DNA from: a virus
Virus record (IMG/VR): IMGVR_UViG_3300043119_000365
Location: 1-29,178 of that record
Length of the DNA stretch: 29,178 nucleotides
Reading direction: 5' to 3' (one strand)
Both the position numbers and the translations under genes were made by a program. The notes beneath the pieces were generated by a model, which saw only the letters and a list, made by a program, of their open reading frames with translations, was not told the origin of the DNA and did not search any database. This document shows positions 22,290-26,626 of the stretch, piece by piece (within the stretch, counting starts at the first letter, position 1; each line of letters opens with the position of its first letter).

Positions 22290-23252
22290 TTATTGGTTTT
22301 CGTATTGTTTCATTTTTTCAGCGAGAAGTTCGGCAATTCGATCATTCTTTTTCTTTTCAATCATTTCTGGGCTACTTGTCTGATACCCTGTAAATATCTT
22401 TGAAAATTGCCCGTACAAAGTATTGGGTGTAAAATTTGCCCTAATCCATTTGTCGTTTAAATTCCATGCAGCGGTTACAAAAACTTTTAGGGCTTCAATG
22501 CTATTTCCATTCCTATCTACCTGTTCCACATTTCGCATTAGGTAAACCATGCCTCCAGCATCTTTTGATGTCATTAAATAATTTCCATTTTTGTCGGTAG
22601 GATAGTTGGCTCCAGATAATTGTTCAAAGGTTTGGCAAAATATTGTAAAGGATTCGTAGGTTAGATTTGCCTTCTTTTCTTTATTTTCTTTTGCGAAATT
22701 TTCTTTTGTTTCTTTTTTTTGTAATTCAGATATAAGTTGAAAAGGATTTACTTTGCCGTTTTTATTTTCCTTAATTTCTATTCCATTTATTTTGATGGGC
22801 GAAAATTCTTTTGAATTTTCAGAAGAAGAAGATAATACTTTAATATGGTTAATACTTCTATTAGCTAATACTTCATGGGGCTTCATTGTTAAAGGTGTCC
22901 CCCCTTCATGGGTGAAGGTGTCCCCCTCTTCACTGGTGAATGGGGTGGTATCCAAATTTGACATACTTTTGCCTGTAATAAAGACTCCTATAAATTCAGT
23001 TTCAATTTTATAAAGGTTGCTAGTTTGGCTTCCATCGGGTCTAAACCTTTGTTTTACACTAATGATTTTTCTTGTTACCAATTCGTTTTTAATCCTCAAT
23101 ATCTTTGAATCGCTAAATTTACATTGCTCAATCAATTTTTTGTTTGAAGGAAAACACATTTTATTTTCATTCATAAAATTTACAATATGGCAAAGTAGAA
23201 ATAATTGGTCAGGTGTTACCTGAGGTAAAAGCCTTGTATCTATGTTTATCAT
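22290..23252 (-). CDS. replication initiator with winged-helix N-terminus
   Basis: I use the ATG at 23252 (MINIDTRLLPQVTPDQLFLL), one base after the upstream stop; 320 residues. Residues about 1-95 look like a winged helix-turn-helix (MCFPSNKKLIEQC, SDSKILRIKNELVTRKIISV) of the phage replication initiator / HTH_36 type. Residues about 100-190 are a variable linker, whose DNA carries iteron-like repeats. The C-terminal part (SFTIFCQTFEQLSG, then WNLNDKWIRANFTPNTLYGQ) resembles the end domain of phage replication proteins. It would bind the origin inside its own gene and recruit the host helicase, as lambda O does. Confidence 0.7.
   Translation of the reverse strand: MINIDTRLLPQVTPDQLFLLCHIVNFMNENKMCFPSNKKLIEQCKFSDSKILRIKNELVTRKIISVKQRFRPDGSQTSNLYKIETEFIGVFITGKSMSNLDTTPFTSEEGDTFTHEGGTPLTMKPHEVLANRSINHIKVLSSSSENSKEFSPIKINGIEIKENKNGKVNPFQLISELQKKETKENFAKENKEKKANLTYESFTIFCQTFEQLSGANYPTDKNGNYLMTSKDAGGMVYLMRNVEQVDRNGNSIEALKVFVTAAWNLNDKWIRANFTPNTLYGQFSKIFTGYQTSSPEMIEKKKNDRIAELLAEKMKQYENQ
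22877..22949 (-). repeat. iteron-like repeats inside the replication gene, candidate origin
   Basis: Read on the minus strand, three consecutive units share a CACC..TTCACC..TGAAG core: TTCACCAGTGAAGAGGGGG, ACACCTTCACCCATGAAGG followed by GGGG, and a diverged ACACCTTTAACAATGAAG followed by CCCC. Each has a short dyad (TTCA..TGAA) and, in two units, a G run. They encode the initiator linker at residues about 101-125. Origins placed as iterons within the initiator gene are known from lambdoid phages. Confidence 0.5.
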
Positions 23253-23253
23253 T

Positions 23254-23982
23254 TTAAAATAATTGTAAAGTTTGTGATAATTCGTTTTTACATTCATGCA
23301 CCCCTAAACCAATCCAAATATTTCTGTGTTGATACATATTTCCTATTAAAATGTAATTATCCTTATCTTTTGAAATATATCTAAAAGCATCTTTTTTTGC
23401 TCCAAACTTTCTTTGAAATTCATAATATTGCCAATCGTTTAGTTGTAAATTATGAATACCATCCAAATCGTTAAATGAAATTCTGGATTCTTTTAAATAC
23501 TGGTCTTTAGTGTATAAGGACGTTTCAATACATTGCACATCTTCAAACATATTAAATTGACTAGTATTCACAAAGTTTTTATTTACATCCCAATAAGGTT
23601 TTAATTGATTTGTCTTAATTACTCCAATACTCTTTCTTTCTTCGTTTAACTTAGAAATACTAGGTGAAACAATTTTTTGAAACATTGAAATTATAAAATC
23701 TTTATTTACTTTTCCAAGGCAAATAATTTCTTTTTCAAGTCCAATAAAATTGTCAGTCCTTGTCATTGAGGATAATTTCCATGATTCTTTTCTTGTATCT
23801 CTACTATTCCTTTCAACATCAATAATATATTTATACCATCTTTTGAATCCTATTAAAGGAACAGGGTAAACTCTTATAAATCCAAGTTCTGGTGAATAGC
23901 CAACAGTGCATGAATATTCCCTCCCATCTTTTTTAGATATTTCAGGAATTGTTTTCGCTATAACAATATATTCAATTTTCAT
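23254..23982 (-). CDS. unknown conserved-looking protein, paired with ParB-like/DUF4326 gene
   Basis: This is a 242-residue soluble protein. The start MKIEYIVIAKTIPEISKKDG is followed by EYSCTVGYSPELGFIRVYP and RWYKYIIDVERNSRDTRKES, an ordered set of conserved-looking blocks with several Arg, Asp and Trp positions that could bind nucleotide or nucleic acid. I do not recognise a family. It ends in QTLQLF, a weaker variant of a clamp-binding end. It overlaps the upstream gene by 11 bases, so the two products probably act together. Confidence 0.55.
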   Translation of the reverse strand: MKIEYIVIAKTIPEISKKDGREYSCTVGYSPELGFIRVYPVPLIGFKRWYKYIIDVERNSRDTRKESWKLSSMTRTDNFIGLEKEIICLGKVNKDFIISMFQKIVSPSISKLNEERKSIGVIKTNQLKPYWDVNKNFVNTSQFNMFEDVQCIETSLYTKDQYLKESRISFNDLDGIHNLQLNDWQYYEFQRKFGAKKDAFRYISKDKDNYILIGNMYQHRNIWIGLGVHECKNELSQTLQLF

Positions 23983-24856
23983 CTGCCAATTGTTTTAAAT
24001 GTTCACCATGACAACGAAGTGGGTAACAATGACAACCTAACGCCTTACCTTTTAATTGCTTTACCTTTTGATTTAATTCTAATTTTAAATTAAAATATAC
24101 TTTGAAAGATTCACAAACAGTATCACGATTCCCATCACCTCCAATTAAAAATGGATTTCCCCAATCGCTCCATCTATCTATTTGTTGAAACCTTTCATTA
24201 TCCTTTGCCCATTTCATAGCGTGAAAATTTGTATTCATGTTTAAAACAACCGTTTCGCCTTCTTTCATTCTATTAATAAGTTCCAAATCTTCTAATGGAA
24301 TAACCTCAGTACTTCCTTTTTGGTCAATGATTTGCCTTTTTACTTCGGCTCTTTCTTTTGCGACTTCTTTAGCTTTCTTTAATAGTTCCTCTGGAGTGCT
24401 AATTGCAAACATTGGTTCATTTTTTACTTCTTTAATTTCTTGATTTACGGGTTTCCAATTATTCACAACCGATTGAACCTTTGCGGCTGTTATTGGCTGC
24501 CTTGTTTCCTCGCTTTGTTTTACAACTTCCTTCCAAACCTCTTTTTGAATTTCAGGCTCCAAACTTGTAAGGGGTCTAATTTGTGATTCTGATTGAGGTA
24601 AAAGTGAGCCAATTGGTTCACTTTGTAAATTAGTTACAGTTTCATAAGCTCTTATTAATCTTGTTGCGCTTTGTTGAACCATTCCCCATTTATGGGTACA
24701 ATAATCCTCAAAAGTTTTAAAACTAATTCGGTATAACCGTTTTTCTTTAATAGTCATTAAAGCCTGTCCAACCTCAATAAAGGTATTTAAGCCTTGCTTA
24801 ATGACAACCTCGCATCTTTCGAGTTCATGCGATTCTTCAATATTCAATATTTGCAT
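23972..24856 (-). CDS. ParB-like DNA-binding domain fused to DUF4326
   Basis: The start at 24856 (MQILNIEESHELERCEVVIK) is chosen because an upstream ATG at 24889 lies inside the terminator hairpin; 294 residues. Residues about 8-80 (FIEVGQALMTIKEKRLYRIS, FEDYCTHKWGM...ATRLIRAYE) match a helical N-terminal domain common in phage ParB-like or regulatory proteins. A charged linker follows. Residues about 205-294 are DUF4326: VVLNMNTNFHAMKWAKDNER, IDRWSDWGNPFLIGGDGNRD, and LKGKALGCHCYPLRCHGEHL with a Cys-His cluster likely to bind metal. DUF4326 has no known activity. The leader holds a terminator-like attenuator. Confidence 0.7.
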   Translation of the reverse strand: MQILNIEESHELERCEVVIKQGLNTFIEVGQALMTIKEKRLYRISFKTFEDYCTHKWGMVQQSATRLIRAYETVTNLQSEPIGSLLPQSESQIRPLTSLEPEIQKEVWKEVVKQSEETRQPITAAKVQSVVNNWKPVNQEIKEVKNEPMFAISTPEELLKKAKEVAKERAEVKRQIIDQKGSTEVIPLEDLELINRMKEGETVVLNMNTNFHAMKWAKDNERFQQIDRWSDWGNPFLIGGDGNRDTVCESFKVYFNLKLELNQKVKQLKGKALGCHCYPLRCHGEHLKQLADEN

Positions 24857-24860
24857 AGGT

Positions 24861-24900
24861 AGAAAAAAAATGCCCCAATAGCTAGACATCTATCGGGGCA
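24861..24900 (-). terminator. terminator/attenuator immediately before the ParB-DUF4326 gene
   Basis: The stem TGCCCC.ATAG / CTAT.GGGGCA has ten pairs and one mismatch, an 8-nt loop and eight T on the minus strand. It ends only about 5 bases before the ATG at 24856, leaving no room for another promoter. It therefore acts on transcripts meant for that gene as well as on those from upstream. Confidence 0.8.
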
Positions 24901-24961
24901 AAGGTGAAACAAAGATTTGCTTCAAGCTCCTTTGGGACGTTGTCTAGTCCGTTCCAAAGGA
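24863..24961 (-). promoter_or_regulatory. candidate leader RNA with complementary loops (attenuator-type switch)
   Basis: Two hairpins follow the TATCTTTG element. The first has the stem TCCTTTGG / CCAAAGGA (24928-24935 with 24954-24961) and an 18-nt loop that contains CTAGACA. The second is the terminator, whose loop contains TGTCTAG, complementary to it over seven bases. Loop-loop pairing or an alternative fold could change termination in front of the gene at 24856. Complementarity is seen; regulation is inference. Confidence 0.5.
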
Positions 24962-24965
24962 TAAA

Positions 24966-24973
24966 CAAAGATA
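24966..24973 (-). promoter_or_regulatory. -7 promoter element TATCTTTG
   Basis: This exact TAnnTTTG element starts three bases after the stop of the 45-residue gene and would begin a leader RNA of about 100 bases for the ParB-DUF4326 gene. No good -33 element was found. Confidence 0.45.
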
Positions 24974-26573: not shown

Positions 26574-26602
26574 AAAAAATAGTAAGGATTTTACTCCTTA
26601 CT
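26574..26602 (-). terminator. terminator-like hairpin in front of the methyltransferase
   Basis: A perfect eight-pair stem AGTAAGGA / TCCTTACT with a 6-nt loop is followed by ATTTTTT on the minus strand. It is placed 11 bases upstream of the methylase start. It would limit read-through from the SSB unit into the methylase gene, as at 24861-24900. Confidence 0.75.
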
Positions 26603-26626
26603 ACAGAACACTATAAACTAAAACAC

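Follow-up and report, generated by a model that had tools for sequence, protein, structure and literature searches.

A leader RNA of uncultured phages in which a 5' hairpin loop and the loop of a predicted terminator vary together as a complementary code

We describe a leader RNA on the minus strand of the window, by which we mean the whole stretch of viral DNA analyzed (29,178 nucleotides, positions 1 to 29,178 of IMG/VR record IMGVR_UViG_3300043119_000365). The leader contains three hairpins, P1, P2 and P3, of which the last is a predicted intrinsic terminator whose apical loop (L3) is complementary over seven nucleotides to the loop of the first (L1). Comparison with related leaders makes the pairing between the two loops well supported. 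We propose that the leader is a cis-acting loop-loop transcription attenuator of early or replication operons, a reading to which we give a probability of roughly 55%.

Results

Anatomy of the leader

On the transcript, the elements follow each other in the order -7 box, P1, P2, P3, T8 tract and ATG (Table 1). The original prediction, made from this sequence alone, comprised a short sequence element, a hairpin exposing CTAGACA and a terminator with a complementary 8-nt loop. All of them are present on the minus strand, both in the sequence and in the fold, and CTAGACA finds its exact reverse complement in TGTCTAG (24888-24882). The two hairpins thus stand, but a third one lying between them, P2, had been missed. 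The terminator was also rightly placed just before the start codon, at a distance then given as about 5 bases; counted from the T8 tract to the ATG at 24856, the gap is 6 nt. The expected transcription start of the window leader lies close to position 24961, one base 5' of P1, because the box is taken to span -12 to -5, the interval determined in Flavobacterium (PMC9723704).

Table 1. Position of the leader elements and of the first operon genes in the window
Feature	Position	Strand	Basis
Promoter -7 box TATCTTTG, Bacteroidota sigma-A type TAnnTTTG	24966-24973	minus	sequence
P1, 5' hairpin	24929-24960	minus	fold and covariation
L1 loop code CTAGACA, in the P1 loop	24941-24947	minus	sequence
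P2, small hairpin GAAGCAA-ATCT-TTGTTTC	24906-24923	minus	fold and alignment
P3, predicted intrinsic terminator hairpin, 11 bp	24871-24900	minus	fold and covariation
8-nt P3 loop ATGTCTAG	24882-24889	minus	sequence
L3 loop code TGTCTAG, 7 bp Watson-Crick with L1	24882-24888	minus	covariation
T8 tract of P3	24863-24870	minus	sequence
First operon gene, 294 aa, C-terminal DUF4326	23972-24856	minus	Pfam
Second gene, overlapping the first; PHROG of unknown function	23254-23982	minus	
Third gene, overlapping the second; HTH_36, replication initiation protein	22290-23297	minus	

The plus-strand complement of the leader folds at -38.5 kcal/mol and its shuffles at -25.4 (z = -4.3, no shuffle being equally stable). 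The transcribed strand, at -40.0 kcal/mol, forms these three hairpins too, each separate from the others. A scanner looking for a terminator with an exact 7-mer complement upstream returned one match in the real window and 0.0 per shuffled window. Elsewhere in the window, a terminator-like hairpin (GTAGTAAGGA/TCCTTACTAT, followed by T5) lies at 26579-26604 on the minus strand, just upstream of the methyltransferase gene, and for this hairpin the scanner returned no loop upstream that matches.

Related leaders

Homologues of the downstream gene were taken from IMG/VR and their upstream regions were inspected. The three-part leader precedes most of them, with loop letters that differ and are again complementary (GTAGACA/TGTCTAC, GTGCAAG/CTTGCAC, GCACTAC/GTAGTGC and GTGATAG/CTATCAC). 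The closest case departs from the window by a single swap of C-G for G-C, made simultaneously in both loops. One homologue, L006, lacks such a leader before this gene and carries copies elsewhere on its contig. Further relatives were sought without using the loops, through patterns of P2 and the linkers and through homologues of a second downstream gene, the ParB-N-methyltransferase. A covariance model, R1, was built on the stems alone and is therefore blind to loop pairing. It matched 83 distinct copies, 82 of them complete, on contigs of uncultured phages; these metagenomic contigs share descent and their counts overstate the independent events, for which the number of distinct codes together with the second architecture described below is a better measure. 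A divergent class I leader outside the R1 matches, L011, keeps CTGCGAC/GTCGCAG. Three other leaders (L189, L202 and L195) are doubtful.

Covariation of the two loops

Among the relatives, both-side changes are seen at four of the seven pairs of the P1 stem and at all 11 pairs of the P3 stem, where G-U is tolerated. P2 is the most sequence-conserved part of class I, with 99% of cells paired, and conservation of sequence along the leader is highest in P2 together with the linkers. In a MAFFT alignment of 19 sequences the kissing helix is 100% paired with both-side changes at all seven pairs, which 0 of 500 shuffles matched, and shifting the partner by one column abolishes the pairing. Seven Watson-Crick pairs without any G-U are present in 51 of the 52 complete leaders among the first 53 copies. 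In the full set, 77 of the 82 complete copies show a run of at least seven pairs joining the region of the P1 loop to the loop of P3; another four stand at six from alignment trimming, the full seven being visible for the three types concerned, and contiguous Watson-Crick pairing of at least seven is found in all but one copy. When partners are swapped in from copies with other codes, seven or more pairs form in 0.35% of cases. Eighteen distinct loop codes were recorded, with no G-U pair in the columns checked. The sole mismatch, an A.C at one of the seven pairs (GTGGACA against CGTCCAC), occurs in L109, the second copy on its contig.

Since the matching letters vary between viruses yet change together, the two loops must pair. 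Loss of complementarity in homologues that keep both stems had been set beforehand as the observation that would count against the prediction; in the homologues examined, the pairing was kept.

The complementarity stops at the loop edge. It does not extend in 46 of 52 copies on one side and in 43 of 52 on the other, extension into the stem being rarer than the 25% expected by chance, and the P3 loop measures 7 or 8 nt in every one of the 52 copies. L1-L3 pairing and P3 can therefore coexist. Nor does the pairing replace the terminator, because the complementarity would then continue into the stem. The stacking energy of 19 codes is about -13.4 kcal/mol with a standard deviation of 0.98, against 1.95 for column shuffles of the same composition; this is suggestive of selection on L1-L3 affinity, the codes being partly related by descent.

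A second architecture

Leaders found before more distant ParB-N genes (class II) lack P2, have a P1 loop of 13-14 nt and end in a long two-part terminator hairpin. Their P1-loop codes GCTTCAAC, GCCTTCAC, GTCTTCAC, CATCTCAC, GCTCTCAC and GACTTCAC each match a complement in the apical loop of the terminator. In an alignment of nine sequences, 8/8 loop pairs are kept, six of them with both-side changes, a result reached by 0 of 500 shuffles. A generic minimum-free-energy test of loop-loop pairing gave a diluted signal in class II, where the fold often closes a pair within the apical loop. For the distant leaders, a loose-hairpin test was often matched by shuffles too, and the class II covariation was used instead. 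Further leaders, read by eye, carry GTGCAT/ATGCAC, AATGCAG/CTGCATT and AGGTCGAAGC/GCTTCGACCT. Covariation in each of the two architectures thus lends strong support to the kissing proposed from the window. With compensatory changes in both loops and the stems kept, the leader is, as judged from these alignments, a kissing-loop RNA.

Promoter, terminator and downstream genes

A promoter box precedes P1 in 52/52 distinct copies, at a spacing of 6-8 nt in 51 and of 12 nt in one, and a T run follows P3 in all 52, its longest stretch being 4-10 nt. The ATG comes 6-16 nt past the end of the R1 model and the terminator lies directly 5' of it in nearly all copies. Promoter, leader and predicted intrinsic terminator are hence found directly before a gene, which is the structure of a cis-acting attenuator. 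From the promoter type, the hosts are probably Bacteroidota. On the antisense strand, TAnnTTTG boxes, the one box type considered, occur in 3 copies against 5.7 expected.

The first two genes of the window operon overlap, as do the second and the gene of the replication initiation protein; the leader thus heads a replication operon. The first gene had been called ParB-DUF4326. Pfam bears out the DUF4326 half and finds no ParB domain in the window copy, though among the relatives there are, by eye, fusions of ParB-N with a DUF4326-like C-terminus. The same gene has no PADLOC match. Over all copies, the downstream genes belong to at least a dozen families, including ParB-N with methyltransferase, DUF4326, HTH_36 and other initiator-like proteins, HNH-AP2, HNH-helicase, T5orf172/MUG113 proteins and a small unknown protein, and homing-type nucleases are among them. 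Up to ten codes are found per gene family and up to five families per code: leader RNA and gene reassort.

Discussion

Proposed mechanism

Attenuation is the most likely role of the leader because the promoter box sits just before the RNA and the terminator just before the ATG. Where a promoter, leader and terminator form a unit that ends at a start codon, expression is reduced unless polymerase reads through, and a partner that holds the loop of an intrinsic terminator can alter that effect. We propose that transcription starts at the 5' edge of P1 and that the polymerase meets P3 about 90 nt further on, with an apical loop exactly complementary to that of P1 and the start codon some 6-25 nt beyond the terminator. 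As the P3 arm and loop leave the RNA polymerase, the waiting P1 loop would pair in cis with the P3 loop. Assuming that P3 indeed terminates, kissing or its absence would set the fraction of polymerases that stop there, and thus the level of the early or replication operon. As to the direction, our guess is that early L1-L3 pairing slows the closure of P3 and favors readthrough, whereas occupation of L1 would restore termination.

Alternatives to attenuation in cis

Covariation is blind to whether the loops pair in cis or in trans. One could imagine that the terminated leader of about 100 nt is released and that its L1 and L3 pair with other leaders of identical code while these are being transcribed, so that termination rises with the number of template copies and provides feedback or immunity, much like the CI RNA of phage P4 or the attenuator of pT181. 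We regard this as possible, at something over one chance in five. It would suit leaders that precede replication or early operons, the near-identical genes that carry up to ten codes and an L1-L3 affinity that looks tuned; a precedent exists in the CI RNA of phage P4, which pairs with leader sequences upstream of replication genes (PMC4825925). Two different codes are also found on 14/14 contigs with two copies, but this is not beyond chance (P = 0.45) and avoidance of a shared code within a genome was accordingly rejected. Moreover, pairing in cis would compete with pairing in trans, no antisense promoter was found among the TAnnTTTG boxes considered, and none of the additional target sites of the code looks non-random. 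Extra copies of the code, numbering 32 against 18 expected in the raw count, were discarded as trans targets, being apparently coding, in redundant loci and without shared context.

If such action in trans were true, the loop codes would define immunity or incompatibility groups. A somewhat less probable and frankly tentative extension is an RNA self-recognition code, in which each phage would own a private loop pair, the terminated leader would serve as its own diffusible repressor, and diversification would create immunity or incompatibility groups among Bacteroidota phages. Such a code would parallel the specificity of phage repressors by means of RNA alone.

Because P3 and kissing are compatible, the contact need not alter termination at all and might do no more than stabilize the RNA. 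The P1-P3 contact might then fold the 5' end into a compact cap shielding the mRNA or a small RNA against nucleases, or present the start codon, with termination left unregulated. P1 beginning at about +1 and the ATG just after P3 would agree with this. Leader structure can also matter because Bacteroidota are without Shine-Dalgarno sequences (PMC6847099). Neither role, however, requires the terminator-grade stem and T-tract present in every copy, and class II retains the loop pairing with a different stem design. We consider this reading rather unlikely.

The original prediction had also envisaged the sensing of a small molecule, and this is not supported: the variable part is the loop code, the same code stands before unrelated genes, and one gene may have up to ten. 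A gene-specific ligand is unlikely because codes do not follow genes. The conserved P2 and linkers could bind a common protein, but this RNA stands before a dozen or more unrelated families with a code independent of the gene, and class II lacks P2, which leaves a metabolite-sensing riboswitch or the site of a gene-specific regulator very improbable. Finally, the two loops do form a 7-bp inverted repeat as DNA, but 18 different 7-mers cannot all suit one protein, the P3 stem changes its pairs and accepts G-U among them, as an RNA would, and shuffled windows gave zero scanner matches, so that the proposed pair of protein sites is effectively excluded and chance complementarity is very improbable.

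A type III toxin-antitoxin system of the ToxIN kind was considered and rejected: by eye, the leaders contain no tandem repeat, and the genes downstream are methyltransferases, replication initiators and nucleases.

Relation to known systems

The window has no match in Rfam, C4 antisense RNA included, the weak matches all being far below the gathering threshold; the leader RNA family is new relative to Rfam. The cassettes tried in blastn had no copy in the phage-isolate collection or among PLSDB plasmids, with the exception of one 33-base match (E = 0.03) in an unannotated metagenomic phage record. No copy was found in Flavobacterium tant8-1, Croceibacter P2559S, Cellulophaga phi39:1 or the first 20 kb of Parabacteroides PDS1. 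We found no description of such a leader in the literature searched, which left out many subscription papers.

The C4 antisense RNA of P1/P7 (RF01695) belongs to a phage leader with complementary segments in one transcript and control by premature termination. These features are shared by phage P4, whose CI RNA pairs with leader sequences and so brings about termination of the replication transcript (PMC4825925). On the proposed mechanism, the present leader resembles P4 in all of them and in its place before replication genes. It differs from both in that the complement lies within the apical loop of the terminator, the pairing is strictly loop to loop and the codes number about 20. Plasmid pT181 likewise places kissing hairpins and a terminator ahead of a replication gene, where control is exerted at the step of loop pairing (PMC3753616) and the antisense RNA is counter-transcribed. 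Here, in contrast, both loops are in the sense RNA, and the TAnnTTTG boxes considered gave no antisense promoter. In ColE1, the loops of RNAI and RNAII are of about 7 nt, fully paired and different in sequence between compatibility groups. The present loops are alike in length, full pairing and variability, whereas ColE1 kissing is intermolecular and acts on a primer rather than on a terminator.

The PeSLs of T4-like phages (Arbiol 2010, cited in PMC4503421) are mobile promoter-stem-loop cassettes, and our leader resembles them as a promoter and hairpin unit common to many unrelated phage genes. It differs in being found in other phages, with a Bacteroidota-type box and a 5'-leader position instead of a T4-type early promoter and a stem-loop lying between genes. 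We know of no loop-loop pairing in PeSLs. In Gifsy-1, one promoter gives both a terminated short RNA, IsrK, and a readthrough mRNA (PMC4825925); IsrK differs in acting on translation and in having no kissing code.

The leader adds to the RNAs of uncultured phages a covariation-supported class, standing at the head of early and replication operons, whose 5' hairpin and terminator loop evolve jointly as a code that can change. It makes testable the tuning of an intrinsic terminator by loop-loop contact, the action in trans of terminated phage leaders and the cause of code diversification. Since their predicted pairing energies are similar, the natural codes could be used as ready-made orthogonal parts for building attenuators in Bacteroidota.

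Minor observations on the loci

In L007, L008 and L012, a short direct repeat, TTAGACATTTA, lies just upstream of the promoter box. On one contig, two related HNH-AP2 genes are each preceded by a leader (L109, 3946-4042, and L108, 1231-1327). The ParB-N genes of L030, L022, L091, L188 and L203 have a conserved ParB-N N-terminus and varied C-termini (N6_N4 methyltransferase, MT-A70-like and DUF4326-like), and by this comparison such genes undergo modular exchange of their second half. The C-terminal DUF4326 half is near-identical between the first operon gene of the window and those of L003, L007 and L008, while their leader RNAs are wholly different, which suggests recombination between leader and gene.
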